Origin: Pseudomonadota bacterium
Lineage (GTDB): Bacteria; Pseudomonadota; Gammaproteobacteria; Burkholderiales; JAJZQI01
Direction of reading: 5' to 3'
NCBI GenBank assembly: GCA_021851875.1
Contig: JAJZQI010000002.1
Location: 124,001-188,000 of the forward strand
Length of the DNA stretch: 64,000 nt
In this document: positions 45,343-62,208 of the stretch, piece by piece
How the letters are laid out: the number at the start of each line of letters is the position of its first letter
Position numbering within the stretch: position 1 is the stretch's first letter
Notes under the pieces: generated by a model
Told to the model about the DNA's origin: nothing
Database searches by the model: none
The model's input: only the letters and a program-made list of their open reading frames with translations
Translations under genes and position numbers: made by a program

Positions 45343-45344
45343 CA

Positions 45345-46748: not shown

Positions 46749-46787
46749 CGGGAATAGGGCGTATTTATGGTATGATTAAGGGTCAAC

Positions 46788-47684
46788 TTGTATCCGGAAA
46801 TGCGTTTGCAGAATATGCCGCACGCCGAACTCTCGCTCATCGAGCAACTCAACACCAACAGCGACCCCTACCATGACCCGCTCAAACATCTGAACTGGGG
46901 CGAGCTGAGCACGGACGACTTTTGGCTGCCGGAATCGGCCGTCTCGCTGACCGGTGTGCCCGAGTACGAATCGCTGCCCGAAAGCACCCGTAAACGCCTG
47001 TCGCAATACGAATTCATCGGTTTCACCCAGGCCGGCCTATGGCTTGAATCCATTTTCATGGAGCGCCTGGGGCGCAGCCTGAAAAATACCCTGGGACTGG
47101 CTGAGCACGCCTATTACCTGCACGAGATACGCGAAGAAGCGGGCCACAGTCTGATGTTCCTCAAACTGATGGAAACCAGCGGCCTGCGCCTGCCGCATAT
47201 CTGGCAGCGCCGACCGAAATTCGCCGACTTTATCGGCCGCAACACGCCCGTATCCACCACCCTGTTCTGGCTGGCCGTCGTGGTGGGCGAAGAAGTGCCG
47301 GACAAGATGAACCGCCACGTGCGCGTGCACGGCGAGAAATCCATCAACCCGCTGATCAGGCAGATGTGCACCCTGCACATCATCGACGAAGCCCGCCATA
47401 TCGCCCACGCCCGCAGCGCCCTGGTGGACAGCCTCAACAGCAAGGGTTTGGTGACGCGCTTGATGCTGACGCCGGTGGTCAATTACCTGCTCAAACAGTT
47501 CGTCAACACCTTCTATCTGCCCACGCCGGAGGTCTACGAACTGGCCGGCCTGACGCCGGGCAAGAACTGGGTGGGGAAAGCCCGCCGCAACCTGCAGCGG
47601 CAGACTTTTATCGCCCAGTGCGTCAATCCCACGCTGAACTTCCTCAGCGAACAGGGCTTCAAACTCGACGTGCCCAAACTCTAG
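46788..47684 (+). CDS. AurF-like diiron oxygenase family protein
   Basis: This 298-residue helical protein shows paired iron-ligand motifs: LHEIREEAGHSLMF (Glu, ExxH type, about 115-125), VVVGEEVPDKMNRH (about 163) and IIDEARHIAHARS (ExxH, about 203). This pattern fits the AurF/PF11583 diiron oxygenase family, of which some members oxidise aryl amines. The first start, TTG at 46788, has AAGGG at good distance; ATGs at 46800 and 46815 are alternatives. It ends just before the convergent SulP gene. Substrate unknown. Confidence 0.82.
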   Translation: MYPEMRLQNMPHAELSLIEQLNTNSDPYHDPLKHLNWGELSTDDFWLPESAVSLTGVPEYESLPESTRKRLSQYEFIGFTQAGLWLESIFMERLGRSLKNTLGLAEHAYYLHEIREEAGHSLMFLKLMETSGLRLPHIWQRRPKFADFIGRNTPVSTTLFWLAVVVGEEVPDKMNRHVRVHGEKSINPLIRQMCTLHIIDEARHIAHARSALVDSLNSKGLVTRLMLTPVVNYLLKQFVNTFYLPTPEVYELAGLTPGKNWVGKARRNLQRQTFIAQCVNPTLNFLSEQGFKLDVPKL

Positions 47685-49322
47685 CTATGCCTGCCTCGCC
47701 ACTTCGGCGAGTGTATTCACCGCAATCACGCAGTGGCTGCCGACCTGGTCGATCAAGCCGGCATTTTTCACCTTTTCCGCCACATTGTCGCGCATGCCGC
47801 ACAAAATCAGGCGCGTGCCGTTCTTGTCGCAGGTTTTCAACAAGCCGGCGAGGGAACGCAAGCCGGTGGCATCGATGATCGGCACCGCATGCATGCGCAG
47901 CACCAGCGTTTTGGTATGGCTTTGCAGCCGCTCCAGCGTCGTTTCTATGCGCTCGGCCACGCCGAAGAAATAGGGTCCCTCCATGGAGTACACCACCGTT
48001 CCCGCGGGCCATTCCATGTCCTGATCGGCCAACTCGCTTTTCAGCGCCGCCTCGGTCTGCTGTTCCAGCACCACGGTTTCCGCCATGCGTTTCATGAACA
48101 GCAGCACGGCCAGCAGCACGCCGATATTGACCGCGATGACCAGGTCGGCGAATACGGTCAGGAAAAAAGTCAGCAGCATCACGACCACATCGGCGCGCGG
48201 CGCAGTCAGCAGTGTATGGCAAAAATGCCGCCATTCGCTCATGTTGTAGGCCACCACGAATAGAATGGCCGCCAGCGCCGCCAGGGGGATCTGCGATGCC
48301 AGGGGCGCGAGCAGCAGAACAATGAGAATCAGTGTGACCGAGTGAACAAGGCCCGCCAGCGGACTGTTGCCGCCGTTGCGGATATTGGTGGCGGTCCGGG
48401 CAATGGCGCCGGTGGCGGCAAAGCCGCCGAACAGCGGCGAAACGATGTTGGCCAGCCCCTGGCCCACCAGCTCCTGATTGGAATCATGCCGGGTTCCCGC
48501 CATGCTGTCCGCCACCACGGCGGACAGCAGCGATTCGATGGCGCCCAGCAAGGCAATGGTGAAAGCCGGACCGATCAGCCGCAGCGCATCGTCGAATTGC
48601 ATACTCGGCAGCGAGAACGACGGCAATTGCTGCGGCAGACCGCCGAAGGTGCTGCCCAGCGTAGCCACCTGCGGCGAATTCCACACGCTTTGCAGCACGG
48701 TCGCCGCCACCATGGCAACCAGCGGAGCCGGCACACGGCGCAGCAACCGGGGTGAAAGCAGCAGCACCGCCAGGGTGAACGTGCCCAGCAAGGTCGTGGG
48801 CACGTTCAGTTGCGGCAGGCTCAGCAGCAGATGCCAGAGTTTTTCATGAAAATGCGCATTGGCGCTGGTCACCGGATGCAGGGCGAAAAAATCGCTCCAC
48901 TGGCCGACGAAAATGATCACCGCGATGCCGGCGGTAAAACCGGTGATCACCGGATCGGGAATAAAACGGATCACGTTGCCGAGCCGCGCAAAGCCCATGG
49001 CCAGCAGCATGAAACCGGCCATCAGGGTGGCTATTTGCAGGCCGCCGATGCCGTATTTGGCGGTAATACCGGCGAGTATGACGATGAAGGCGCCGGTCGG
49101 TCCGGATATCTGCACCCGGCTGCCGCCAAACAGGCTGGTCATCAATCCCGCGACGATCGCGGTATACAACCCCTGCTCCGGTTTGGCTCCGCTGGCAATG
49201 GCGAAGGCCATGGCCAGCGGCAAGGCCACCACGCCGACGATCACGCCGGCCAGAAGATTGGTCATCCAGTGCTGCCGGGAAAGCAGCCCTGCCCTTTTCG
49301 CCTCCAGAAATGCAATCATCAC
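47685..49322 (-). CDS. SulP-family anion transporter with STAS domain
   Basis: This 545-residue protein has about 12 to 14 membrane segments (residues 20-400) with the SulP signature LAMAFAIASGAKPEQGLYTAIV, and a C-terminal STAS domain (about 435-540, VLRMHAVPIIDATGLRSLAGLL). SulP proteins carry sulfate, bicarbonate or other anions. It lies just outside the phosphate-related island; membership is not indicated. Start at 49322 is an ATG; an AT-rich stretch upstream may hold its promoter. Confidence 0.92.
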   Translation of the reverse strand: MMIAFLEAKRAGLLSRQHWMTNLLAGVIVGVVALPLAMAFAIASGAKPEQGLYTAIVAGLMTSLFGGSRVQISGPTGAFIVILAGITAKYGIGGLQIATLMAGFMLLAMGFARLGNVIRFIPDPVITGFTAGIAVIIFVGQWSDFFALHPVTSANAHFHEKLWHLLLSLPQLNVPTTLLGTFTLAVLLLSPRLLRRVPAPLVAMVAATVLQSVWNSPQVATLGSTFGGLPQQLPSFSLPSMQFDDALRLIGPAFTIALLGAIESLLSAVVADSMAGTRHDSNQELVGQGLANIVSPLFGGFAATGAIARTATNIRNGGNSPLAGLVHSVTLILIVLLLAPLASQIPLAALAAILFVVAYNMSEWRHFCHTLLTAPRADVVVMLLTFFLTVFADLVIAVNIGVLLAVLLFMKRMAETVVLEQQTEAALKSELADQDMEWPAGTVVYSMEGPYFFGVAERIETTLERLQSHTKTLVLRMHAVPIIDATGLRSLAGLLKTCDKNGTRLILCGMRDNVAEKVKNAGLIDQVGSHCVIAVNTLAEVARQA

Positions 49323-49430
49323 GCCTCGCTACCGTATGCCCCGCAACATTACAATTATATATAGCGATAACATCCCTGAAACGGGAATGGTTTTCAACGG
49401 ACATTATTTTTCTGGCGGATGAAACAAAAA

Positions 49431-49450
49431 AGGGCTTCTTGCGAAGCCCT
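49431..49450 (-). terminator. Rho-independent terminator after the phoX-like gene
   Basis: On the minus strand AGGGCTTC and GAAGCCCT form an 8-bp stem, followed by TTTTTT. It lies 18 bases beyond the phoX-like stop codon and closes the exbD-to-phoX transcript. Confidence 0.85.
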
Positions 49451-49468
49451 TGATGTGGGTCGAGACGA

Positions 49469-51370
49469 TCAGTCCAGCCGGCCCAGCGGGATATAACCCA
49501 CCATGCCGCGCTTGTCGACACGACTGGCCATGTCCTGACGGATTTCCGGCGGGTATTTGCTCAAATCATCGTCGGCCCCCGGGTGCTGCACGTTGGCCAT
49601 GATGTAACCGTATCCGTCGCTTGTCACGACCGGCGCCAGCCCCGTCCACTCGGCACCGATGGGCGCCGCGGCCAGACGCGTCAGCTGTTTGGTCCGGGTG
49701 TTGTAGGCCCACAGCATGTTGTTGAGGTGATTGCCGCTGTCCTCGCCGATAAACAGGGTGTGCATCGCAGGCGAGTACTTGATGTTATCGGGGTTGCCGA
49801 TACGTGCCGGATCGCATTTGTCGTAGCTGTTTGCGGCAGTATTGCTTTTGCCGGTCAGCAACGCCGCGGTCGCACCTGCCACCCACTGGCTGTTGATTTT
49901 TTTGCCATGCGAGTCAAGCGCGCTTTGCGCCAGATCGGCGGCAAACACAACGCCGCACGACAGACTGCCGTCCGGATCGGACAGGGAAATGTCGTTCTGC
50001 GGCCGCACGCCGTTCTTGCCGGTCGGAACGCCGCCTTCGGCGTAGGACATGGCGAAATACAACTGACGGCCTTGCGGATTGGCGCTCAAGCCTTCCATTT
50101 TGTTAAACTCGGTCGTCGCCCCCTGATAAGCTGCATAACGGCGGGTTTCCAGGAAGGCGGCGATTTTTTCCATACCCGGCTTGAGCTTGAGATACTCCAG
50201 CTGCGTGACGCCGGCGGTGCCGCCGTAGGCATACACCGGACGGTAACCGGCAAAGCGGGCCGGGTTTTGCTCATAGCCTTCGGCCGTGACGTAGTCGAAG
50301 ATATCGGAAAAGCGGATTTTGCTGCGGATCATGGCTTTCACCTGGGCGTCGGTGGCATGTCCCAGCGGAATCCACTGCAGGTCGGCCTTGCCGCCGTTGC
50401 TGCCGTCGGTCTGGTTCCACTTGGCGGCGTACAGGGTACCGGCAGACAGGTCGCCGGCACGGTCGGCCACATACATGCCCATCATCACATCCTGCCCGTC
50501 GTCACTCAGATATACCGTGCGCTTGTCGGGCATGACGGTACCCAGTTCATGGGAGAAGCGGCCCATGGAGTAATGTTTGACGATGTGACCCGTGCCTTGT
50601 TTGTCCACCGACACTTCGGTAATAAAACCGTAGGCATAGGGGTTGGCACCGCCCTTGCCGGCCAATTTACCCATGGTGCCCAGATAGGCATTCATGGCTT
50701 CCAGAGGCACGCGTTCGAAATGGCGCGCATCCGGTTCATATTCTTCGCTGCCCAGATGGGTGTTCCAGGGCGTTTGCTCGCCGGCGCACGGCGTCCACAA
50801 GCCATCGACGGGCTTCATATCGACGTTTTTCAGGCTGACGGCCTTGAATTCACCGCTGGCAGGGTCCTTTTCCAGCTTGGCGACATTGATCGCCATCGGC
50901 AGCTTGCCATACAGGTTGACCTTGGCGGGGGCGGCGCCAACCGCCGGCGCGTCGGTGTCGTACTCGAAATGCGTCACCAGGTAATAGGCAGACCGGCTGC
51001 CGTTCCTTTGCTCGATCAGCGAATTCGCATCCGGTCCCTTGGCGTAGAACGGCCCCCGACCTTCATGCGCGGACTCGTCATAGCTGGTCAGCATCAGCGG
51101 CTGGCCCTGCCGGGTGACAATCTGCCCGGCGGGCCAGCCGCCCAGCACGTCACCCGAGCGATAGAGCACGTGATAGGCCAATGGCCGGCTGACCGTTTTG
51201 CCGTCGGCCTGCGCCACATTGACGCTGGCGCTGCTGTGTACCCGAGTCATTTCGCCTTCGCCGCTGGGCAGCGAGGAGGCGGTAAAACTCACCTCGGCGG
51301 CCAGCGCAGCGGCACTGCACGCAGCCAACAGGACGGCAACGAGCGGTTTGAGCATGATGCTTGATTTCAT
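49469..51370 (-). CDS. PhoX/DUF839-family alkaline phosphatase
   Basis: This 633-residue exported protein has a Sec-type signal peptide (MLKPLVAVLLAACSAAALA) and PhoX/DUF839 motifs such as TPWNTHLGSEEYEPD, YSMGRFSHELG and IGEDSGNHLNNMLW, which hold the Fe/Ca cluster ligands and the Arg/Glu residues of the active site. Classical PhoX is exported by Tat; no twin Arg is seen here. It is the last gene of the cluster, with a 30-base gap after the PF04185 gene and GGAAAG as ribosome binding site. Substrate is likely phosphate esters. Confidence 0.88.
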   Translation of the reverse strand: MKSSIMLKPLVAVLLAACSAAALAAEVSFTASSLPSGEGEMTRVHSSASVNVAQADGKTVSRPLAYHVLYRSGDVLGGWPAGQIVTRQGQPLMLTSYDESAHEGRGPFYAKGPDANSLIEQRNGSRSAYYLVTHFEYDTDAPAVGAAPAKVNLYGKLPMAINVAKLEKDPASGEFKAVSLKNVDMKPVDGLWTPCAGEQTPWNTHLGSEEYEPDARHFERVPLEAMNAYLGTMGKLAGKGGANPYAYGFITEVSVDKQGTGHIVKHYSMGRFSHELGTVMPDKRTVYLSDDGQDVMMGMYVADRAGDLSAGTLYAAKWNQTDGSNGGKADLQWIPLGHATDAQVKAMIRSKIRFSDIFDYVTAEGYEQNPARFAGYRPVYAYGGTAGVTQLEYLKLKPGMEKIAAFLETRRYAAYQGATTEFNKMEGLSANPQGRQLYFAMSYAEGGVPTGKNGVRPQNDISLSDPDGSLSCGVVFAADLAQSALDSHGKKINSQWVAGATAALLTGKSNTAANSYDKCDPARIGNPDNIKYSPAMHTLFIGEDSGNHLNNMLWAYNTRTKQLTRLAAAPIGAEWTGLAPVVTSDGYGYIMANVQHPGADDDLSKYPPEIRQDMASRVDKRGMVGYIPLGRLD

Positions 51371-51400
51371 AACAGATTACTTTCCGGAATGGATTTCATT

Positions 51401-53110
51401 TTAAAGCCCGCTTGCGGCCGGGCGGGAAAAATCGAACATATTCATCAGGTCGCCGATCGCCGGACGGTTTTCCGGCACATAGGGATTGGCTTTGCCATGC
51501 ACCGGGTTCGGCAGGTTGTCGCGGCTGCGGGCCGACAGCGGCGGCAAGCCCCAGTTGCGCTCGATGAATTTGATGATCGAAGCGTGGTCGTAATAGGTGT
51601 GATCGACTTCCCCTTTACGCGCATACGGTGACACGGCGATCAGCGGAATGCGCGTACCGTCGCCGAAGAAATCGACGATCTGCACGTAGCCCGAGTCATA
51701 GTAACCGCCGCCCTCGTCAAAGGTCACGAGAATGGCGGTTTTCTTCCACAGCGCGGGGTTGGATTGCACGCGCTTGACGATATCCCGCACCAGTTCCTCG
51801 AACCCCGTTTCCATGGCGTAACCGGGATGGCCGGAGATGCTGTCGTACGGTGCGATCACCGATACGGCCGGGAACGTTTTGGCGTTCTTCACGTCGACGT
51901 AGAAACGCTGCAGATCGAGCAGCTTGCTCTTGTCCGCTCCGCTCATGGTGGAGTGGAAGAAGGTCTGCGTATCGCACATGCCGCAATACTCGCGGTCGGT
52001 TTTCTTGCCGTCGTTGCGGCCGCCACTGTACCACTTCCACGGCAGGCCCGCCTTGGTCATGGCGTCACCGATGCTGGGAATGATCTGCGGCGGCAGCAGG
52101 CGCGTGCCCGGCCCCATCGGCAGGGAACGACCGTCAGCCGTGTAGGACGGGTCGAGATTGTTCACCATGTAGTAGGCGCCCGCGGCGCAGTTGCCGTCAT
52201 TGAACAGCTTGTACGGCAGGCTCTTGATGTAGTCGTTGATGGCTGACACACCGGCGGCATTGGGATCGGAACAGTTCAGATAGCTGCCGCCGTTCTCAAC
52301 CAGCTGCTTGCCGCCCTTGAGCACATGCAACTGGGTCACCAGATTGGCCGACGGCACGCCCATTTTGCCGTTTTCGGTATAAAAAGCCACGTCGGCCGAG
52401 GCGAGCGCAAAGTAGTTCTGTGCCGTGCCGCCCATGATGGACTGGTGGTAGTTATCGGCAATGGAATACTGTTCCGCCAGCGTTTTGAAATACGGCGCAT
52501 CGCCCTGGGCCATGTTGTAGAAGCCCATGGCAACGGCACCCTGGTAGGTCGGCACGGCTTCCACCTGCTCGACCCTGTCACCCAGATAGAAACCGAAATG
52601 GTCGGCGGTCCAGACGAACAGATCGTTCTTGCCGCCGTTCACCTGCTGCCACATCTGCAGGAAGCGGTGAACCGGGTCGCCCGTATGAGCGCCGTAGCTG
52701 ACGTATTTGGTGATCTGGAACGGCCCGTTGGCCAGTTTCTCGGGAAAACGTGCGTCGGGCACGTCATGCTGCTGGCCGAAGGCGCCGGCCGCAAAGGGCT
52801 GCGGCAGATCTTTATAGCTGCCGGTAATCGGCGGGGTCGGGCGGTAACCCCGGCTCATGTCGGCCGTGCGCTGGGCAGCCAGCTGGTAATTCGGCCCCGG
52901 CGTGCCGTCCGCCTTGACGATGCCCTGCGACAGCAGGTTCCATACGGTCTGTCCTTTGGGCGGCTGGTACACGCCATAAAGGTTGTCGAAGGTACGGTTT
53001 TCACCCACCACGACGATGACGTGTTCGATCGGCGTTTGCGCCTTGGGGGCGGCGCTGACCAGCGCTGGCGTGAGAGCCAGCGCAACCGCCGCAGCAATTC
53101 GTGACAGCAT
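51401..53110 (-). CDS. Phosphoesterase, PF04185 (phospholipase C/acid phosphatase AcpA) family
   Basis: This 569-residue exported enzyme has a signal peptide (MLSRIAAAVALALTPALVSA) and the family motif VIVVVGENRTFDNLYG with metal-bound Glu-Asn and nucleophilic Thr (about residue 39). Later metal sites are VTFDEGGGYYD (about 460) and YYDHASIIKFIE. Members cleave phosphate monoesters or phospholipids. It lies 28 bases after exbB and before the phoX-like gene, suggesting shared expression. Confidence 0.9.
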   Translation of the reverse strand: MLSRIAAAVALALTPALVSAAPKAQTPIEHVIVVVGENRTFDNLYGVYQPPKGQTVWNLLSQGIVKADGTPGPNYQLAAQRTADMSRGYRPTPPITGSYKDLPQPFAAGAFGQQHDVPDARFPEKLANGPFQITKYVSYGAHTGDPVHRFLQMWQQVNGGKNDLFVWTADHFGFYLGDRVEQVEAVPTYQGAVAMGFYNMAQGDAPYFKTLAEQYSIADNYHQSIMGGTAQNYFALASADVAFYTENGKMGVPSANLVTQLHVLKGGKQLVENGGSYLNCSDPNAAGVSAINDYIKSLPYKLFNDGNCAAGAYYMVNNLDPSYTADGRSLPMGPGTRLLPPQIIPSIGDAMTKAGLPWKWYSGGRNDGKKTDREYCGMCDTQTFFHSTMSGADKSKLLDLQRFYVDVKNAKTFPAVSVIAPYDSISGHPGYAMETGFEELVRDIVKRVQSNPALWKKTAILVTFDEGGGYYDSGYVQIVDFFGDGTRIPLIAVSPYARKGEVDHTYYDHASIIKFIERNWGLPPLSARSRDNLPNPVHGKANPYVPENRPAIGDLMNMFDFSRPAASGL

Positions 53111-53138
53111 GGTTATCCTTGATTTTCCGTAATGCCGA

Positions 53139-53741
53139 TTAACGCGCGCCCAACAGAGTCAGCGTGATCAGCTTCATCTGGTTGGTGACTTCTTCCGCCT
53201 TGTTGTTGAAGTAGTTGAAGAACAACATGGCATACAGGGCGATGAAAATACCGACGCCGGTGGCATACAAAGCGGTACCGATACCGCGGCTCACGGCTGC
53301 CGGATCCGCAGCGACGCTGCCGGAAGAAAGACTGTAGAAGGCGTCGATAATACCCAGAATGGTACCCAGCAAACCCATCAGCGGGGACAGGGTGATGATG
53401 GTATCCAGGATCCACAGACGCGAAACGACCTTGGGCTGCTTGTCCACATAAATGGATTGAGCGATGTATTCCATCTGCTCATGCTTATGATTTTCCTTGG
53501 CCGCTTCGACGACCTCGCAGATTGCCTCGGCTTGCGGGCTCTTGTGGGAACGGAAGACTTCTAGAATCTCGCCGTGTAATGTCTTGTCGTGCAGATGGCT
53601 GCGCACGAAACTCACCACGTCCTTGCCTTCACGCAGGATGGTGGAGAAAAAAATCATTCGTTCGATGATGATGTAGGTCGCCAGCAAAATAACACCGACC
53701 ATGATGTACATCACAATGTCGTGGATCAGAGTGAACGTCAT
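53139..53741 (-). CDS. exbB: ExbB/TolQ-type proton channel subunit
   Basis: This 200-residue membrane protein has three membrane segments and the family region SPLMGLLGTILGIIDAFYSL, typical of ExbB, plus a C-terminal helix with GIGTALYATGVGIFIALYAM. With ExbD it energises TonB using the proton gradient. The ATG lies only 13 bases after the T run of a strong terminator (53755-53783), so it is expressed by read-through, or by a promoter within the receptor gene. AAGG serves as ribosome binding site. Confidence 0.93.
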   Translation of the reverse strand: MTFTLIHDIVMYIMVGVILLATYIIIERMIFFSTILREGKDVVSFVRSHLHDKTLHGEILEVFRSHKSPQAEAICEVVEAAKENHKHEQMEYIAQSIYVDKQPKVVSRLWILDTIITLSPLMGLLGTILGIIDAFYSLSSGSVAADPAAVSRGIGTALYATGVGIFIALYAMLFFNYFNNKAEEVTNQMKLITLTLLGAR

Positions 53742-53754
53742 GCCGAAATCCTTG

Positions 53755-53783
53755 AAAAAAACCGGAGCCCGGCGGGGCTCCGG
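53755..53783 (-). terminator. Rho-independent terminator between the receptor gene and exbB
   Basis: On the minus strand CCGGAGCCC and GGGCTCCGG make a perfect 9-bp stem with a 4-base loop, followed by seven T residues. The exbB start codon lies 13 bases later, too close for a separate promoter after the terminator. Confidence 0.9.
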
Positions 53784-53795
53784 AAAGACGCTGCC

Positions 53796-55997
53796 TTAGA
53801 ACTTGCCTGATACGTTGAAGAACACCATGCGCGGAGCGCCTGCCTGCAAGGTCTGCCCGGTACCGTTGGGATCGGAATAACCGTAGCCGTTGGTACCCAT
53901 GGAAGAGAAGTATTGCTTATTGAACAGGTTGTTCACGTTCAGCTGCACCCTCAATTCCTTGAGCATGCCTACATTGCGGGTCTTGTAGCCAACACCCAGG
54001 TTCCAGATCCAACGCGGATCAACATAGTTGTCGTTGGAGTAGGTGTAGTAACGCTTGGAGGTGTAATCGCCGCCCAGACGGGAGAACCAGGTACCGTTGT
54101 CGTACGCCAGTTCGGTCTTGAAGGTCTGCTGCGGAACGCCAACAACCTGCTTGCCGCTTACATACTGGATGGTGGAACCGTTAACGTAGTTATCCTTGTA
54201 CTCGGTGCTGTTGTAGCTCAGCGCGTTGAACCAGGACCAGGTCGGCGCCAGTTTCCAGTTCAGGCCCAGGTCGAAACCGTCGGATTGAACCTTACCCACG
54301 TTGGCCAGTACGGTCGGGCTGCCGACGATACCGGCGCCACTGCTGATGCTCAGCAGACGGTCGTTGAAGTCAACGTGATAAACGGACAGTACACCGTCCA
54401 GCTTCTCGCCGTGGAAACGCCAGCCGGCTTCATAGGTGGTGGAAGTTTCCGGCCGCAGATTGCCCTGGATCGCTGCAAAACCGGCCTGAGTGGTGCCGAA
54501 CGGCTGGGTGTACAGAGCACGCATGTTCTGCGCGACACCGGCAAACAGTTCGTTCGCCGCATCCAGCTTGTACACCATGCCCACTTGCGGCAGGAAGTTT
54601 TTCTTCGAGGTGATGGTACCGGACGGGTAATTTGCACCGGTGGTCTCGTTGCCGGTCACGTCAACCTTGGGCGACTTGAAGCCCACGTTCACGGTCAGGC
54701 GCGGAGAAACGGTGATGGTGTCCTGCGCGAAGTACTGCAGGGTCTTTTCGGTAAAGTTGAAGGCCCAGTCGGTACGGAACGGGTTGGACGGGATCACGTA
54801 CGGCGACAGCGGATCGTTCACGCCGTTCGCGTAATAGCGGCGGGCCTGATTAAGTTTGTCGTCTTCATACCACAGACCGCCTTCGATCTTGTGATTTTTC
54901 AGCGTGTAGGTCAGCGTCGAAATCACACCGGAACGGTCGATGTCGTATTCGGTCGTACGCGTGGACGGCACATTGGTGCCCGGGCTCAGCACGTAAGGAG
55001 TCCACCACAGGCCGGCACCGTGGTTGTTGTGGTTGTAAACGGTGTTCTTCCAACGCAGATGATCGTTGATCTTGGCATCCAGTGTCACACCGGTCAGGTA
55101 GTCGCGGCGCAGACCGGAACCGGCATAATAAGCGTCGTCGATCGAGGTTTCGCCGCTGGTCCAGATACCGTTGGCGGAAGCGACCGCCTTTTGCCAGTCG
55201 GGATAGTAGTTATCCCAGTTGTAACCCAGGCGGGTAGCCATTTCTTTGGACAGATCCTGGTAGTCGATTTCCTGCCGGTCGGACCAGTTGAAGAAGGCGG
55301 ACAGCTTGCTTTCGCCGAAGAACTGCACGTACTTGGTGTTGATCTGCTGGTAGCGCTGTTCGCCGTGGCCTTTCCACTTGTCGGAATTCTGATCCACGCC
55401 GCTGATGTAGAACTTGCCGCCGTTGCTCAGACGACCGGTATCCAGACGTATAAAGGTACGACGGGCATTGTCGCTGCCCAGCATCTGGCTGGCAGCTACG
55501 CCGAACTCTTCATCCGGATCGGTGGAATAGAACTGCATGGTACCGCCCAGGTTGCTGGTGGAAGCGGTATCCAGCGAACCGGTGCCTTGCGAAACCTGCA
55601 CGCGGCCGATGTTTTCGGAGGAAATCGCGCGAGCGATGCTCAGACCGTTGTGGTTGCCATAGCTCAGGTCACCCAACGGAATGTCGTCCAGGGTATAGCC
55701 CAGCTGGCTGGAGCTAAAACCGCGCAGACTCAGGTTGGTAGACCATTCGTAGGCGCCGTAGGTATCGCTGGATTCGAAATGCACGCCCGGCACCTTGTCC
55801 AGCACTTTCAGCGGGCTGGTGCCCGGTGCGGAATCCTCGATATCTTTTTTGGTGATGTTTTGCACCTGACGGGTTTGACCCTGACCGAATACGGTAATGT
55901 CTTCGGTCTGAACAGTATCGTCCTGCGCATAGGCACTGCTGACCAGCGTGGCTGCAATCAGCACTGCCAGCGGACGAAGGCGAAACGCGTTACTCAT
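53796..55997 (-). CDS. TonB-dependent outer membrane receptor (receptor 1)
   Basis: This 733-residue receptor has a signal peptide (MSNAFRLRPLAVLIAATLVSSAYA), a TonB box (EDITVFGQ, about residues 32-39), a plug domain (about 45-160, with LRGFSSSQLGYTLDDIPLGDL), and a 22-strand barrel ending in NVSGKF with the terminal Phe. It belongs to the family of siderophore/catecholate-like receptors by fold, but the phosphatase neighbours suggest phosphorylated compounds. It follows tonB1 by 57 bases and precedes a terminator. Confidence 0.92.
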   Translation of the reverse strand: MSNAFRLRPLAVLIAATLVSSAYAQDDTVQTEDITVFGQGQTRQVQNITKKDIEDSAPGTSPLKVLDKVPGVHFESSDTYGAYEWSTNLSLRGFSSSQLGYTLDDIPLGDLSYGNHNGLSIARAISSENIGRVQVSQGTGSLDTASTSNLGGTMQFYSTDPDEEFGVAASQMLGSDNARRTFIRLDTGRLSNGGKFYISGVDQNSDKWKGHGEQRYQQINTKYVQFFGESKLSAFFNWSDRQEIDYQDLSKEMATRLGYNWDNYYPDWQKAVASANGIWTSGETSIDDAYYAGSGLRRDYLTGVTLDAKINDHLRWKNTVYNHNNHGAGLWWTPYVLSPGTNVPSTRTTEYDIDRSGVISTLTYTLKNHKIEGGLWYEDDKLNQARRYYANGVNDPLSPYVIPSNPFRTDWAFNFTEKTLQYFAQDTITVSPRLTVNVGFKSPKVDVTGNETTGANYPSGTITSKKNFLPQVGMVYKLDAANELFAGVAQNMRALYTQPFGTTQAGFAAIQGNLRPETSTTYEAGWRFHGEKLDGVLSVYHVDFNDRLLSISSGAGIVGSPTVLANVGKVQSDGFDLGLNWKLAPTWSWFNALSYNSTEYKDNYVNGSTIQYVSGKQVVGVPQQTFKTELAYDNGTWFSRLGGDYTSKRYYTYSNDNYVDPRWIWNLGVGYKTRNVGMLKELRVQLNVNNLFNKQYFSSMGTNGYGYSDPNGTGQTLQAGAPRMVFFNVSGKF

Positions 55998-56054
55998 TTA
56001 AAAAACCCCCTGATAAATGGCTCTTATACATCGACACCGGAATGGACGATCCGG

Positions 56055-56753
56055 CTAGTAATTGATGGAGAAAACCAGCTTCGTGCGAAATTCCTTCTGG
56101 CTCTCACCAACCCAGGCATCTGCCGGAAATGCTGCAAACGCGGCAGAACGAACGGCTTTCAAGGCCGCCTGATCGAGCAGCGGATAGCCGGACGACTTGG
56201 TTATTTCCGCTGAAACAAGTTTCCCGCTGCGATCCAGCACGTAAATGAGCTCGACGACGCCGCTCATGCCTAAATCACGCGCACTGTCCGGGTAAATCTT
56301 TTTCCGCTCGATCTGGCTGCGCACATCCTGCGCGAAGCGGCCCTCGGAAGCCGCATTGCTTTGCGGCGGAGGGGCCTGGACGGTTGGAATGGTCTTGGCT
56401 TCCGGCGCCACCGGCGCAACAGGCACGCTGACCGGATCGGCCTCGGGTGCAGGAGACGGTTTTGCGGCTACGGGAGTGACCGGAGTTTGCTTAACGGCTG
56501 CCGGTTTGCTTTCATGCTGCACCGGCTGCGGTTTGGGCGGGGGCTCGACCGGTTTGGGCGGTTCCACCGGCTTGGGTGGTTCCTCGGGCGACGCGGCCAA
56601 GGTCACCCGAATCGGCGCCTGCGGCGGCAGAGGATCATGCCGAATGGCCAAGTGGGTAATGGCCAGAGCCAGCATGACGCCGACCAGCGCAGAGCCTCCC
56701 TGGGCAAACCATTCCCGCTTGTCGTACACCAGCGGAATTGCCATGGCAGTCAT
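56055..56753 (-). CDS. TonB energy transducer (TonB1)
   Basis: This 232-residue protein has a short cytoplasmic start (MTAMAIPLVYDKREW), one membrane helix (about 18-36), a Pro/Lys/Glu-rich spacer (PPKPVEPP repeats, about 50-130), and a TonB C-terminal domain (about 145-232, YPDSARDLGMSGVVELIYVLD). I place the start at 56753, which has GGAACG before it; a longer frame overlaps exbD. It follows exbD by 19 bases. Its N-terminal VYDxRE motif is shared with the second TonB at 61166. Confidence 0.92.
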   Translation of the reverse strand: MTAMAIPLVYDKREWFAQGGSALVGVMLALAITHLAIRHDPLPPQAPIRVTLAASPEEPPKPVEPPKPVEPPPKPQPVQHESKPAAVKQTPVTPVAAKPSPAPEADPVSVPVAPVAPEAKTIPTVQAPPPQSNAASEGRFAQDVRSQIERKKIYPDSARDLGMSGVVELIYVLDRSGKLVSAEITKSSGYPLLDQAALKAVRSAAFAAFPADAWVGESQKEFRTKLVFSINY

Positions 56754-56772
56754 TGACGTTCCTTCGCTCTGA

Positions 56773-57180
56773 TTATTTCCGGGCCGAGGCGATCGCAATG
56801 GAGGTGATGCCGGAGGACTTGACCGTATCCATCACATCCACTAATTGCTGCACGGATGCGTCATGGTCGCTGTTGACCACCACATCCGCGTCCTTACCGC
56901 TTTGCTTGAGCTTGACGAGCTCGGTCTTGAGCGAAACCAGCGTCTGATCCTTGCCGTCGAGCTGAATGACGCCTGTCTTGCTGACGGTAACGACCACATG
57001 GACGCGCACGTCCAGCTTTTCCGGCTGGCCAGCCGTAGGCAGCTTGGTTTTGATCCCCAGGGCAGGAATAACGTGCAGACTGATCAGCACAAAGAAAACC
57101 AGCAGAAACATCATCACATCGATCATCGGGATGATTTCGATACGTGCCTTGCGGCGGGGTTCTTCGTGCCAGAACAACAT
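56773..57180 (-). CDS. exbD: ExbD/TolR-type proton channel subunit
   Basis: This 135-residue protein has a short N-terminal cytosolic part (EEPRRKARIEIIP), one membrane helix with the key Asp in MIDVMMFLLVFFVL (about residue 19), and a periplasmic domain (about 50-135). It leads the cluster exbD-tonB-receptor-exbB, an unusual order because exbB is placed after the receptor. Its start lies 20 bases from a perfect palindrome. Confidence 0.93.
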   Translation of the reverse strand: MLFWHEEPRRKARIEIIPMIDVMMFLLVFFVLISLHVIPALGIKTKLPTAGQPEKLDVRVHVVVTVSKTGVIQLDGKDQTLVSLKTELVKLKQSGKDADVVVNSDHDASVQQLVDVMDTVKSSGITSIAIASARK

Positions 57181-57200
57181 TATCGCTTCCCTTAGCGCTC

Positions 57201-57217
57201 TTAATCGAGTCGATTAA
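57201..57217. promoter_or_regulatory. Perfect palindrome upstream of exbD
   Basis: TTAATCGAGTCGATTAA is a perfect 17-bp palindrome with 8-base arms, 20 bases before the exbD start. It could be a repressor operator or a hairpin in the leader. The upstream AT-rich stretch (57230-57290) is likely the promoter, but no clean -35/-10 pair is evident. Confidence 0.5.
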
Positions 57218-57367
57218 CAAAAATTAAGATACGCACTATATAAGAAAACCTTTACATATGAATTAACCTTTTATTTCATTTATTCTTATGATTTCGTACC
57301 GGCTACAGCCGTATTACACGGGAGGGATTCCGTACCAAACGCTACCGGAGTCGTCCTCCCTTTGACA

Positions 57368-58756
57368 TCACTTTCCGTCATACCCCAGCTCTCGACTGCT
57401 CAGCTGCCTGTTCCATAATTCATTGCCATGCGAATCGAATACCCGCAGCGTCAGCTGTCTTTGTTTGCTTTTACCGGCAAAATCCAGCCCGCAAAAATTG
57501 CGTTCCCCCACCAGGGTTCCGGCAATGAGGCCGGGGTTCTGCCGTTCCGAATTGATGTCGTGAGTGCCGGAGGTTAACGGCGAGCAGGTCAGCTCATACA
57601 GGGTGTAGTTCCCTGCACGCGGCCAGTGCAGCAACTCCGTGTGGTGCCGGTCGCCCGACAGGAACATCACCCCGGGCACGCGCTGCTGATCGAGCCATTG
57701 CAGGAAACGCTCGCGTTCGGCGCCGAAATGCCGCCACCCTTCATAGGGACTGGAACGGTCGAGCAACTGGCTGCCGCCGACGATGAACTTGAAGGTCGCC
57801 GCAGAACTCAGCAAGGCATTCTTCAGCCAGCGCATCTGCTGCTCACCGAACATCACCTTGTTGTCATCCTGCAACTTGTCGTCGTCGCGATACCAGCGGT
57901 TATCGAGCAAAAAGAAATCGGCATCGCCCTGATGCACCACGCTAAAGGTGCCCGGCATGCCAGGCAGGCCATAGGACGGATTGACCCAATAGCGCTCAAA
58001 CAGCATCAACGCTTGCTGTTTGAAGATGAAGCTGGAATTCGAATCGTTCGGGCCGTAATCGTGGTCGTCCCATATCGCCGCATGGCTGCCGGTAGAGAGC
58101 AGCGCCTGCAACTGCGGCAAAGCGCGGTCATGGCGGTAGCGCGCCGCCATCCCGGCGGGACTGTCATAGTCCGCTTCGCGGAAATACAGGTTGTCGCCCA
58201 TCCAGACCGTCAAATCGGGCTTGGCGGCCTCCATCGCCGAGAAGATTTCCATTCCGCCGCCGTAGCTCGAACCGGGCCGGTCGTAGGCGGGTTCGTTGAT
58301 ATAGGCGCAGGAGCCGATCAGCACGCGAAAATCGGGCGGATCCGTGCGCCACTGCCACAATGACTGCGTCGCCAGCTCATGCGTTTTGCCGGCCGGTTTA
58401 CCGTTCAACACGACCTGATAAGCGTACCGCCGCCCCGGTTGCAGGCCATCCAGCAGCAAATGCGCGGTAAAATCCTCGCTCCTGAGCAGCCTGACCGCAT
58501 CGCTGGAGAGCTTTTTCTCGCCGCTCGACTTGCCGGACGCGGACATTTCCCAATAGACGATCCTGGCCGTCGCCGGGGCATCCGCTTGCAGCCATACCGT
58601 GGCCGAACGCATCGCCGTGGGCCCCACCATGGGGCCGGCCTGCAAAGCGGCCGCATGAGCGGCAGCCGACAGACTTGCGCCGAACAGCAAGGCGCACGCC
58701 GTAACCGCACCCCGCAAAAAATGTCCCGCCGTACCTGCACCACCTTGTTTCAACAT
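57368..58756 (-). CDS. phoD: PhoD-family alkaline phosphatase/phosphodiesterase
   Basis: This 462-residue exported enzyme has an N-terminal signal (GAVTACALLFGASLSAAAHA), a fibronectin-like N domain (about 40-140) and a metallophosphatase domain (about 150-440) with IGSCAY, WMGDNLYFREAD, IWDDHDYGPND and FLSGDRHHTELLHW, which carry the iron/calcium ligands. I chose the ATG at 58756 with GAGAGGAACC before it. It follows the second receptor gene by 55 bases, in which a GCGCCC hairpin lies. PhoD releases phosphate from diesters and monoesters. Confidence 0.92.
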   Translation of the reverse strand: MLKQGGAGTAGHFLRGAVTACALLFGASLSAAAHAAALQAGPMVGPTAMRSATVWLQADAPATARIVYWEMSASGKSSGEKKLSSDAVRLLRSEDFTAHLLLDGLQPGRRYAYQVVLNGKPAGKTHELATQSLWQWRTDPPDFRVLIGSCAYINEPAYDRPGSSYGGGMEIFSAMEAAKPDLTVWMGDNLYFREADYDSPAGMAARYRHDRALPQLQALLSTGSHAAIWDDHDYGPNDSNSSFIFKQQALMLFERYWVNPSYGLPGMPGTFSVVHQGDADFFLLDNRWYRDDDKLQDDNKVMFGEQQMRWLKNALLSSAATFKFIVGGSQLLDRSSPYEGWRHFGAERERFLQWLDQQRVPGVMFLSGDRHHTELLHWPRAGNYTLYELTCSPLTSGTHDINSERQNPGLIAGTLVGERNFCGLDFAGKSKQRQLTLRVFDSHGNELWNRQLSSRELGYDGK

Positions 58757-58811
58757 GGTTCCTCTCACAGCAGAACGCGCCCCCGCCTGAACGAGGGCGC
58801 TTGAACGCCGA

Positions 58812-61145
58812 TCAGAAATCGGCCAGGAATTGAATGCTGGCAAAACGCGGGGCCAGCGGCGTGTATTGCGGATTGGAACCCGCCAGGGTCACGCCGTTGA
58901 TGGTGTAGCTGAGCGCGTTGGGCTGCGAGCTGTTGATGATCGCCAATGTGTTCCGGTCAAACAGGTTGGATACATTCAGCTTCAGCATGGCGCTCTTGAA
59001 ATAGGTCATGCGTCCAAAGCGGTAGCCCAGATTGGCATCCACAGTGGTCATGGCCGGGATGGACTGGTCGTTCATCAGCGTCGAGTAACGCTTGCCGGTG
59101 TATTTCACCTGACCGCCCATGAACCAGCCGCCGGTTTCGTATTGCATGCCCAGGCCCATCATCCAATTGGGAGAGTCAATATACGTTTTCCCCGCAGTCG
59201 GCAGGGTAATCGACTGATGGGAGCTGTTGGTGGTGGTGAAATCGGTTTTTTGCTTGCTATCCAGGTAGGACAGCGACGCGTAGGAAGACAATCCCTGGCC
59301 GAGCTTATGCCCCACTTCCAGTTCGAAACCTTGCGAAGCGACGTTGCCGGCGTTGTAGGTGCGATAAGAACCATCCGCATCGCGCACGGTGGCAAAACGG
59401 TTCTTGAAGTCGATCATGAACAGCGAACCGGAGAAGTAGGTTTTATCCACCTGATAGCGATAGCCGATGTCCGTATTCACCGACGTTTCCGGCACGGTGT
59501 CCTGGGTTCGCGCCGTGTCGTACAAGATAAAGTTGGACGGGGCGCGGAAGTTTTTCGCCACATTGGCGAACAGATGGCTGGTCGGCGACAGCTCATACCG
59601 CACTCCCACGCTCGGCAGCGTTTCGCTGTAGGTGGCGCTGACATTCTTCACGCTGGTCGTGTTGCCCAAACTGAGATTATTCGTGCCGTCCCGGTGAATG
59701 GTCGGGTTGCGCACACCCAGCACGACATTCAGGCGATCCTGCAGCAGGCTGATGGTGTCCTGCGCGAACAACTGGTGCGCCGTGCTGACGGTGTTCCAGT
59801 TACGTCCCTGCAAGGTCGAGCCATTGGCCAACAGCGCCAGGTCATTTTCCGCCCATACATCCTTGGACGTTCCGTTCTGATTCACATAAACATAGGGCTG
59901 GGTCTGGCGATGGTCGGCGCGCTCGTACCAGTAACCGAACATCAGCTGATGATTGTCCAAAGCCCAGTTGAATTTGGTGGTCACGCCGGGGCGGTCCGTT
60001 TTCGTCACGGAAGAACGGTAGAACAGCACGGTGTCGGACGTATCGCCGTCGTGATTCAGATCCAGATTGCTGCCGCCGTTGAGCGTGCGCAGGGTGGAAT
60101 TGCTTTCCGCCAGGGTCGTGCCGAAACCGCCGCCGCCGTAGCCATGCCACAGATACGGTTCGATATCCAGGCGCATGGTGTCGTTCAGCTGGAAGTTGCC
60201 TTTCACCGTGGCGACGTAGTTCTCGAACGGATTCACCTGCAACGCGTAGTAGTCGGTGCGGCTGACACCGGCGACAGACGTGCTCTCGTTCTGCGCCCCC
60301 GGGCCCGGAGTCAGCAATCCCGGGAAGGTGGTCGAATAATCATAATAGCGGCCGTACTGCTGATACTGCGCCAGCGTCATGTTCTTGAAGAAATTGCTGA
60401 CTGCGTGGTTGAACACCACGCCGGCGGAAATTTGCGAGGCGTTGCCGATCTTGCTGACGATTTTCGCATCGACGTGATCGCGGTCGGTATCACCCTGACC
60501 GCGCCACTTGTCGGCCAGCGATTTGGAATAGGAAACATAGGCGGCTGTCGCATTGTCGTTGAACTTGCCGCTATCCAGGCGCACGAAGGTGCGGCTCAGG
60601 CTTTTATCGCCAAAGGTTTGCGACAGGCGAGCGCTGAAATGGTCGCGCGGATTGGATGAAACAATGCCGATATTGCCGCCGGTTGCCCCCACGTGCGGCG
60701 CATCGGTATCGGTCGAGCCTTGCGTGACAAAGATTTCTTCCAGATTTTCCGAATCGACATACTCTTGCGGATAGACGGCGAAGTTGCCGGAGTCGTTCAC
60801 GGGCGCGCCGTCGATGGTAAAGCCCAATTCATCGCTGGTGAACCCGCGCATGGTCATGGAACCGCCGAACAAGCCGGTCGCGTCGCTGGAAAACGCATTG
60901 ACGCCGGGCAACAGCATGAGGTTCTGATACGGATTGCTGGTCGAACGTTGCAATTGAATGTTGTCCTTGCTGACCGTGCTGCGCGCCTTGGGGGTTTCTT
61001 CCTGGATCATGAGGCCGAGCCCCGGATCGGACAAACTGCTGCCTTCCACTGCGATACGACCGATATCCGAGGTGTCGTCGGCCTGCGCTATATTGCCGAA
61101 CAGGGCGGCAATGGCCACAACCAGATACTTGCGATTTACTTTCAC
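58812..61145 (-). CDS. TonB-dependent outer membrane receptor (receptor 2)
   Basis: This 777-residue receptor has a signal peptide (MKVNRKYLVVAIAALFGNIAQA), a TonB box-like DIGRIAVEG, a plug domain (about 45-170, with MTMRGFTSDELGFTIDGAPVND) and a beta barrel ending in IQFLADF with terminal Phe. It resembles receptor 1 in the plug (GFT/SSDELGFTIDG and GFSSSQLGYTLDD) and belongs to the same broad type. It sits between tonB2 and phoD. Confidence 0.92.
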   Translation of the reverse strand: MKVNRKYLVVAIAALFGNIAQADDTSDIGRIAVEGSSLSDPGLGLMIQEETPKARSTVSKDNIQLQRSTSNPYQNLMLLPGVNAFSSDATGLFGGSMTMRGFTSDELGFTIDGAPVNDSGNFAVYPQEYVDSENLEEIFVTQGSTDTDAPHVGATGGNIGIVSSNPRDHFSARLSQTFGDKSLSRTFVRLDSGKFNDNATAAYVSYSKSLADKWRGQGDTDRDHVDAKIVSKIGNASQISAGVVFNHAVSNFFKNMTLAQYQQYGRYYDYSTTFPGLLTPGPGAQNESTSVAGVSRTDYYALQVNPFENYVATVKGNFQLNDTMRLDIEPYLWHGYGGGGFGTTLAESNSTLRTLNGGSNLDLNHDGDTSDTVLFYRSSVTKTDRPGVTTKFNWALDNHQLMFGYWYERADHRQTQPYVYVNQNGTSKDVWAENDLALLANGSTLQGRNWNTVSTAHQLFAQDTISLLQDRLNVVLGVRNPTIHRDGTNNLSLGNTTSVKNVSATYSETLPSVGVRYELSPTSHLFANVAKNFRAPSNFILYDTARTQDTVPETSVNTDIGYRYQVDKTYFSGSLFMIDFKNRFATVRDADGSYRTYNAGNVASQGFELEVGHKLGQGLSSYASLSYLDSKQKTDFTTTNSSHQSITLPTAGKTYIDSPNWMMGLGMQYETGGWFMGGQVKYTGKRYSTLMNDQSIPAMTTVDANLGYRFGRMTYFKSAMLKLNVSNLFDRNTLAIINSSQPNALSYTINGVTLAGSNPQYTPLAPRFASIQFLADF

Positions 61146-61165
61146 TTCCCTTCTCCGTCTGAAAT

Positions 61166-61948
61166 TTAGTTAGCGGGGTAAAAATCAAGCTCTACGGTAA
61201 AACGGTGTTGCGCTTTGCCATCCCAGGCCTCCGGCGGAAACGGCGGATACTCGCCACGCCTGACTGTTGACCGGGCCGCTGCGTCAAGCAGCATGGAACC
61301 GGATGACGTGGCGATACCCATGTCGAGCAGTTCGCCGCTCCGGGCCAGCACGAACCACACCTCGACCACTCCGGCAGGCCTTTGCAAGCTGGCCTCCCGC
61401 CCGGTTGGATACCTCTTGATGCTTTTCAGATAGTCGCGCACGCGGCCGATGTAGGCGGCTTCGGCCGTAGCCGTCTGGGCGGCGTTGGCAGACTGCTTTT
61501 CCGGCGCCTTGGCCGGCAGCGGTATGGCCGCAGGCGGTGTAGCGGCGGCAGGCAAGGACGGCGGCGCAGCCTCGGCCGTCACGGCGGGAGCATCCGCGCT
61601 GACCGGCGCCTTCTGCGGCAAAGAAGCGGGCGCCGGCTTGGACGCCTCGGGCATGGGTTGCCTCTCGGCCTGCGAAGGTTCGACCGGCTTGGTTTTCAAC
61701 GGAACAGGAACGGACTCGGGGATACTGGCCGCCGGCACGGGCTGCGCCATCCTGGCTGCTTCATGGGACGGCCTGGTCAAAGCGGGCGCAAGCGTGACCT
61801 CGATGGGTTCATCCACCGGCTTTTCCCGCCGATGCTGAATCACCATGTGACTCAGACTCACCAACAGCACCGCCCCCACTGTCAGCGAAATGATTTGCGC
61901 CACCAATTCACGATGGTCGTATACCGACGGCAATGCTGCCGAAGTCAT
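61166..61948 (-). CDS. TonB energy transducer (TonB2)
   Basis: This 260-residue protein has the N-terminal SVYDHRE motif, one membrane helix (about 18-38), a Pro/Ala-rich spacer (about 55-165) and a TonB C-terminal domain (about 170-258, YPTGREASLQRPAGVVEVWFVL). A GGGGG ribosome binding site lies 4 bases before the ATG. It is followed by receptor 2 after 20 bases. It is paralogous to TonB1 and has no ExbB/ExbD of its own in this window. Confidence 0.91.
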   Translation of the reverse strand: MTSAALPSVYDHRELVAQIISLTVGAVLLVSLSHMVIQHRREKPVDEPIEVTLAPALTRPSHEAARMAQPVPAASIPESVPVPLKTKPVEPSQAERQPMPEASKPAPASLPQKAPVSADAPAVTAEAAPPSLPAAATPPAAIPLPAKAPEKQSANAAQTATAEAAYIGRVRDYLKSIKRYPTGREASLQRPAGVVEVWFVLARSGELLDMGIATSSGSMLLDAAARSTVRRGEYPPFPPEAWDGKAQHRFTVELDFYPAN

Positions 61949-62076
61949 TGCACCCCCCTGGGCTGCCAGCCCCGTTGATCACCCGGCTGACTCAGGCTGG
62001 CAATGCCAACCCCACCGGACTTGATTCGTTTTAATCCAGCGGAGTGTATAAGCGAATACTTACATTAAAATTAAAT
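61949..62076. other. Leader region of the tonB2 operon
   Basis: This 128-base region leads into tonB2 and grows AT-rich toward 62040-62076. TTATAC near 62045 on the minus strand may be a -10 element. No gene or clear structured RNA is visible. Confidence 0.35.
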
Positions 62077-62092
62077 AATTATTCCGATAATT
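62077..62092. promoter_or_regulatory. Dyad AATTAT-N4-ATAATT upstream of tonB2
   Basis: A perfect 6-bp inverted repeat with a 4-base centre lies in the AT-rich promoter region, about 130 bases before tonB2. It may be a regulator binding site, but chance is possible in AT-rich DNA. Confidence 0.3.
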
Positions 62093-62120
62093 CAGAAGAT
62101 TACTTAGAGATTAAGGGGCG

Positions 62121-62160
62121 GTGAAAGTCGCAAGACAGGGATAATGACAAGACAAAGACA
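62121..62160 (-). promoter_or_regulatory. PHO-box-like direct repeats upstream of tonB2
   Basis: On the minus strand TGTC (62157-62160), TGTCAT (62144-62149), TGTC (62134-62137) and TTTCAC (62121-62126) recur with spacings of 11, 12 and 11 bases. PhoB sites consist of CTGTCAT-like direct repeats spaced 11 bases. The site lies between the nitrate reductase gene and tonB2 and reads toward tonB2, about 170 to 210 bases from its start. Confidence 0.5.
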
Positions 62161-62208
62161 GAGGAGGAGGCGGCAACCCGAGTGCCGCGCCCCTTCTAGC
62201 GCCGGCTT

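Follow-up and report, generated by a model that had tools for sequence, protein, structure and literature searches.

Two TonB-dependent receptor units with exported phosphoesterases in a Burkholderiales genome: candidate modules for organophosphate import and hydrolysis

Gene content and layout of the locus

The 64-kb stretch of DNA analyzed in this work (the window) lies on contig C38 of a 2.68 Mb Burkholderiales genome (G000) and contains nine genes, all on the minus strand, that form two units combining a TonB-dependent receptor with exported phosphohydrolases (Table 1). Unit 1 consists, in this order, of exbD, tonB1, receptor 1, exbB, a PF04185 phosphoesterase and a PhoX-like protein. Unit 2, located upstream of it, consists of tonB2, receptor 2 and phoD, with no exbD or exbB. 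An earlier note made from the sequence alone had described a TonB-phosphatase island at this position; its nine genes were all confirmed, and each protein scores above the gathering threshold of the principal Pfam model that it matches. The back-to-back orientation given in the same note has to be corrected, as the two units are in tandem, head to tail on one strand. The region is flanked by a SulP transporter and a molybdopterin oxidoreductase, and its G+C content is uniform. Beyond the SulP gene, a gene of the AurF-like N-oxygenase family (PF11583) is found at positions 46788-47684 of the window.

Table 1. Genes and sequence elements of the two units (positions in the window)
Feature	Position	Strand	Evidence and remarks
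Pho box 1, CTGTCTTTGTCTTGTCAT	62144..62161	-	upstream of tonB2; top site of 9 scoring at least 11.0
Pho box 2, CTGTCTTGCGACTTTCAC	62121..62138	-	tandem with box 1; third of the 9 sites
tonB2	61166..61948	-	PF03544 1.1e-8; unit-1-type N-terminus joined to a receptor-2-lineage C-terminal domain
TonB-dependent receptor 2	58812..61145	-	PF00593 9.5e-45, PF07715 7.6e-13; T2 clade, support 100
PhoD-like phosphatase/phosphodiesterase	57368..58756	-	PF09423 74.8 bits, cut-off 27; alternative open start 58843
Weak site resembling a Pho box, before exbD of unit 1	57302..57319	-	score 10.2; suggestive only
exbD	56773..57180	-	PF02472 2.1e-27
tonB1	56055..56753	-	PF03544 1.8e-15
TonB-dependent receptor 1	53796..55997	-	PF00593 3e-46, PF07715 3.4e-14; plug-and-barrel model, predicted local distance difference test (pLDDT) 75.5
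exbB	53139..53741	-	PF01618 4.1e-27
PF04185 phosphoesterase, exported; related to acid phosphatases and phospholipases C	51401..53110	-	PF04185 1.7e-59
Exported divergent PhoX-like protein	49469..51370	-	PF05787 81.9 bits, cut-off 24
Terminator-like hairpin after unit 1	49430..49451	-	9-pair stem, then T run

A receptor family associated with unrelated phosphohydrolases

Both window receptors match the Pfam models PF00593 and PF07715 alone and are 29% identical to each other. The search for relatives covered 399 sampled genomes of the order, and matches to receptor 1 (E up to 1e-40) and receptor 2 (E up to 1e-60) were detected in 20 and 17 of these genomes, respectively. Outside the window the matches correspond to 33 distinct loci, every one of which was retrieved and used as a case, including two (L115 and L127) that are cut by contig ends; the low-scoring receptors of L034 and L038-L040 were excluded. 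The controls were 40 further TonB receptors encoded in these genomes, sampled at about every third match. A tree was built with 33 family receptors (both window receptors plus 31 untruncated relatives) and 39 controls, control region L221 being omitted as it has no full receptor open reading frame (ORF). Receptors 1 and 2 fell in one clade, with a support of 100 in the Shimodaira-Hasegawa-like approximate likelihood ratio test (SH-aLRT) and none of the 39 controls inside; the control nearest to it, L232, is itself accompanied by exbB and exbD. The receptor-2 group is a single clade, and the receptor-1 group together with GDPD-linked receptors makes up the other side, a topology that points to sister clades separated by an old split within one family. 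In other genomes the two clades occur together or separately.

Same-strand phosphohydrolases were present within 5 kb of the receptor at 23/33 relatives vs 1/40 controls (Fisher p 3e-10), and at 11/20 vs 1/40 when near relatives were collapsed by hand (p 5e-6). The co-occurrence of these gene families, suggested by the earlier note as something to look for in related genomes, is thus beyond chance. At the level of Pfam families, which is less biased than the enzyme panel used for that count, the five commonest among 71 case neighbors are phosphohydrolases (PF04185, 9; 5_nucleotid_C, 6; GDPD, 4; PhoD, 4; Metallophos, 4), and these five are absent from the 25 commonest of the 94 families found among 109 control neighbors. 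The ORFs scanned amount to 71/86 for the cases and 109/112 for the controls, the remainder being TonB ORFs, one ORF overlapping tonB, two control ORFs of L221 that had already been sampled with L217, and two ORFs of excessive length. The procedure for picking ORFs favored panel-labelled ones in cases and controls alike. For some controls the ORF chosen for the 5-kb count lay on the wrong strand, but no further panel phosphohydrolase occurs there on either strand.

The partner enzymes belong to the PF04185, PhoX-like, PhoD, 5'-nucleotidase, GDPD, PLD, NPP/PF01663, Metallophos and PhoA families. The gene order exbD-tonB-receptor-exbB recurs with a PF04185 enzyme, PhoD, a 5'-nucleotidase or PLD downstream. 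The common theme of these enzymes is the phosphoester and not one metal, and because the same receptor family pairs with unrelated phosphate-releasing enzymes, the receptors probably import phosphorus-containing molecules. Among named genomes, where the best 80 of 397 receptor-1 relatives were analyzed, a same-strand phosphohydrolase was found in 39/80 (43/80 if choline-sulfatase is counted) and in all ten of those that carry exbD.

Other arrangements were also recorded around receptor-1 homologs. The GDPD group of the tree includes L113, whose enzyme is a 946-amino acid protein with an N-terminal beta-propeller and a PF04185 domain, encoded behind an exbD-tonB-receptor-exbB set (L113:4803-7643). 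In Undibacterium (L102:4832-8247; L138, L145) the genes downstream of the receptor encode a metallophosphatase, a GMP reductase and a TonB of a third type, and at L104:5367-8518, L133, L166, L172 and L176 the hydrolase is replaced by the binding protein of a polyamine/aminoethylphosphonate (AEP)-type ABC transporter. An ORF belonging to one sequence cluster, whose scanned member is a chemoreceptor (methyl-accepting chemotaxis protein, MCP), directly follows the receptor at L142 and 16 other named loci, and in other strains related to these a PF04185 enzyme occupies the position after the receptor.

With regard to the cargo, the earlier note had proposed either phosphorylated molecules or the metals required by the enzymes. 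If the receptors imported a metal or a metal chelate (iron, calcium), the association would reflect the supply of cofactors to the exported enzymes; PhoX and PhoD are iron/calcium enzymes, and the curated TonB receptor families nearest to the window receptors are of the siderophore type, with scores (136.3 and 119 bits to the siderophore receptor model TIGR01783) below the cut-off of 223.5. However, the same clade pairs with 5'-nucleotidase, GDPD, PLD, NPP and PhoA, which use different metals or none, PLD and GDPD having none in common. Moreover, Fur-like sites upstream of the cases were on average no higher than in shuffled sequences, those scoring at least 13 of 19 were found at 7/40 controls vs 2/33 cases, and the window units have no such site above 12. 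Iron regulation of the family is unsupported, as these sites are commoner at the controls. Altogether, a role in metal supply seems very improbable and loses ground to the import of phosphorylated molecules, which is favored by the pairing of the clade with unrelated phosphohydrolases and by the Pho boxes and PhoB described below.

The exported enzymes

The PF04185 protein scores 202 bits vs a family cut-off of 23, and its relatives of solved structure include an acid phosphatase (2d1g, 2e-21) and a phospholipase C (9gye, 4e-21). The protein annotated as PhoX in the earlier note does belong to PF05787 and keeps the active-site stretches, but it is very divergent: it scores 82 bits, below the range of full-length canonical PhoX (most of those of the order reach ~500-600 bits), has no NCBIfam match and aligns weakly with the solved PhoX structures 4amf/3zwu (profile E 1e-8). 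In the profile alignment to 4amf the Cys, TPWGT, EE and QHP stretches are retained and they are invariant across 7 aligned relatives; the Cys is presumably an iron ligand. Lipoprotein status, suggested by the LAAC sequence in the window protein, was dropped since the box is absent in the congener and other relatives, and a structure model of this protein was discarded (pLDDT 34). The PhoD-like protein matches the PhoD structure 2yeq weakly (E 8e-5) and shows, by eye, the motifs GDN, WDDHDYG and SGDRHH. Signal-peptide-like N-terminal segments were recognized in all three enzymes, by eye and with no predictor, and the three proteins are presumed to be active.

Phosphate-responsive regulation

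Upstream of tonB2, two Pho boxes are arranged in tandem. They are the best and third-best of nine sites scoring at least 11.0 on both strands of the window and the sole pair with an offset of 22-23 bases. The score of box 1 was matched by 0/1000 shuffles of the 290-base region. In the whole genome 14 sites, box 1 among them, have two mismatches or fewer vs 5 for the reversed pattern, therefore the position of the box before tonB2 is unlikely to be due to chance. The genome encodes PhoB (358 bits vs a curated cut-off of 296), whose gene has a Pho-box-like site of its own just upstream (score 11.2). With a Pho box in its promoter region in a PhoB-bearing genome, unit 2 is a predicted member of the Pho regulon. 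The score of the site upstream of exbD in unit 1 is close to the shuffle background. Sites resembling it also precede exbD in the congener described below (L032, CTGTAACACCATTTGCAT) and in L033 (GTGTAATACTCCTGTCAC); as a conserved promoter element it was considered too weak and was set aside.

TonB2 and the motor

The N-termini of TonB proteins dock on ExbB-ExbD and their C-termini on the receptors. The two ends of TonB2 resemble different lineages. Its first 52 residues share 22-25/52 identities with the five closest unit-1 TonBs and at most 15 with the TonBs of the receptor-2 lineage (best scores 126 for the unit-1 type vs 54 for its own receptor lineage), whereas its C-terminal domain shares up to 62/92 identities with the receptor-2 lineage and 34-37/88 with the same five unit-1 TonBs (323 for its own lineage vs 182 for the unit-1 type). 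Among 25 informative TonBs (two TonBx rows were excluded from the comparison) TonB2 is the only one with discordant ends. The VYDxRE N-terminus noticed earlier as common to the two TonBs is real, and it is joined to C-terminal domains from different lineages.

Because unit 2 carries neither ExbB nor ExbD and the N-terminus of TonB2 is of the unit-1 type, the motor of unit 1 most likely serves both receptors, and the comparison is most simply explained by a new N-terminus that lets TonB2 use it, so that one ExbB-ExbD would drive two TonBs. It could be argued that TonB2 is no such chimera, its N-terminus being convergent or ancestral, and that it uses another ExbB-ExbD or is inactive, considering that the comparison of N-termini spans only ~52 residues and that the genome has two further ExbD-family genes, on contigs C12 and C27. 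The one on C27 lies beside a weak TonB_C match and is probably part of a TolR-TolA pair, and the one on C12 is the candidate for an alternative motor. Against this possibility, which we consider somewhat unlikely, stand the singularity of TonB2 and the size of both score differences, as well as the closest relatives of receptor 2 (L114 and L116), which retain in an exbD-tonB-receptor-exbB-phoD arrangement the exbD and exbB genes that unit 2 of the window lacks.

Origin of the two-unit arrangement

In the single congener available for comparison (G001), the similarity to the window extends over positions 44209-57284 (77-83% identity), beyond which cstA takes the place of unit 2. Since the congener carries unit 1 only, the two units are not local duplicates; local duplication was rejected on the basis of both the receptor tree and this break in synteny. 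The break may be explained by a rearrangement near 57284-57368 that joined the units or by a loss of unit 2 at this point in the congener, and neither case amounts to a local duplication. The duplicated theme proposed in the earlier note thus holds insofar as both receptors belong to one family, and fails as a description of the locus given the old split between them and the single unit of the congener. In addition, a dispersed repeat of ~150 bp (for example L129:479-643) is matched 9 times in G000 and 36 times in G001, and in the congener two copies form inverted arms, 87% complementary, that flank unit 1 (L032:5476-5591, 13497-13612).

Proposed function

Based on the available evidence, the two units are likely outer-membrane modules that scavenge phosphate through organophosphate import and hydrolysis. 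The receptor would bind a phosphorus-containing molecule that porins cannot supply, being too large or too rare, and the pull of TonB, powered by the proton-driven ExbB-ExbD motor (that of unit 1, most likely, for both receptors), would bring it into the periplasm. There, the exported hydrolases of the same unit (the PF04185 enzyme and the PhoX-like protein in unit 1, PhoD in unit 2) may free phosphate or simpler esters, which could then be taken up across the inner membrane. Under phosphate shortage PhoB would switch on unit 2, and probably unit 1 likewise.

The genes adjacent to the receptor relatives allow a more detailed proposal. Relatives of receptor 1 adjoin GDPD (four loci), PF04185 enzymes and choline-sulfatase (in Derxia, Zoogloea and others), the Derxia locus including also a choline binding protein, and those of receptor 2 adjoin 5'-nucleotidases, NPP and nuclease-like PLD. 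The type of neighboring enzyme suggests choline- or glycerol-type phosphoesters as ligands of receptor 1 and nucleotides as those of receptor 2. Tentatively, and with slightly more reason to doubt it than to accept it, it can be hypothesized that this proteobacterial receptor family is dedicated to organic phosphorus and operates as a cassette with a constant receptor clade and an exchangeable hydrolase (PF04185, PhoX-like, PhoD, 5'-nucleotidase, GDPD, PLD, NPP or PhoA), that two such cassettes were wired to one motor in this genome by a swap of TonB domains, and that the two receptor branches may favor these different ligands.

Several observations weigh against the import of organophosphates. 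In 41/80 named relatives the 5 kb around the receptor contain no same-strand panel enzyme, and 17/80, mostly from Duganella, carry instead a downstream cluster of ORFs whose scanned member is a chemoreceptor. The panel was itself built from enzymes seen beside the cases. The structural prediction recommended in the earlier note yielded a plug-and-barrel model of receptor 1 and singled out no ligand class: the model matches TonB receptors of every class about equally (Z ~31-35) and was rejected as a clue to the ligand. Upstream Pho-box scores of at least 10.5 were found at 11/33 cases vs 7/40 controls, a slight excess on which no claim of enrichment is made, and because the scores across the family are barely above those of the controls the Pho control of unit 2 cannot be generalized to it. 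Finally, the activity of the divergent PhoX-like and PhoD proteins is only presumed.

Part of this evidence would also fit a receptor that is merely a co-regulated phosphate-starvation gene importing, for instance, cobalamin or another organic cofactor, the phosphatase substrates passing through porins. Many of these substrates are small, the receptor fold is generic, about half of the named relatives keep the receptor with no enzyme nearby, and a few adjoin choline-sulfatase or polyamine/AEP-type ABC transporters instead. Nevertheless, the repeated pairing with unrelated phosphohydrolases within one clade exceeds what shared regulation predicts. Furthermore, an enzyme is present in every one of the 10/80 relatives that carry an exbD themselves. 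Simple co-regulation is therefore regarded as improbable in comparison with organophosphate import.

Comparison with known systems

A literature search, in which subscription journals were thinly covered, found no paper on this receptor family. Beside the TonB-dependent transporter of the Flavobacterium PUS system (PusCD) lie predicted periplasmic phosphomono- and diesterases, and import of organic phosphorus under phosphate depletion was proposed for it (PMC8115612). The window likewise has co-located exported phosphoesterases (PF04185, PF05787 and PF09423), as do 23/33 relatives. PUS differs in being a SusCD-type system of Bacteroidota with a SusD lipoprotein and a measured induction by low phosphate (PMC8115612); the window has receptors of plug and barrel, proteobacterial hosts and a dedicated exbD-tonB-receptor-exbB set, and no SusD-like gene was found by Pfam in the nine-gene region. 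In Xanthomonas, XanT-XanP couples a TonB-dependent transporter and a phosphodiesterase on one transcript, and the pair was shown to take up and hydrolyze a sugar phosphodiester (PMC12807533). XanP is a 2H-phosphoesterase, and xanthosan, its ligand, is the product of an effector (PMC12807533); none of the nine window proteins has a Pfam match to 2H-phosphoesterases, and the parallel between XanT and the window receptors drawn here concerns the working principle. With no SusD and no 2H-phosphoesterase, the window modules are members of neither PUS nor XanT-XanP.

Two other systems show more distant similarities. In Sphingobium fuliginis an organophosphate hydrolase forms a complex with ExbB/ExbD and TonB, tying a phosphoester hydrolase to the Ton system with a proposed role in phosphate acquisition (PMC7142613). 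That enzyme is a phosphotriesterase inside the Ton complex, whereas the window encodes other hydrolases, connected to TonB by gene linkage only, with no phosphotriesterase match by Pfam among its nine proteins. In Citromicrobium a TonB receptor adjacent to a phytase was assigned a role in organic phosphate use from its gene context (PMC3400609); the enzyme is a different one and the available part of the report describes no dedicated motor for such receptors.

The uptake of organic phosphorus across the outer membrane of Gram-negative bacteria is largely unsettled beyond Bacteroidota, and a receptor clade that can be defined by sequence, with its two branches in 20/399 and 17/399 genomes, offers a direct handle on this process. 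If true, the swap of TonB domains would represent a natural example of a transport motor that gained a second customer. Taken together, this comparison suggests that the modules of the window, with a receptor family that is probably a different one, likely work in the manner of the Flavobacterium PUS or of XanT-XanP.

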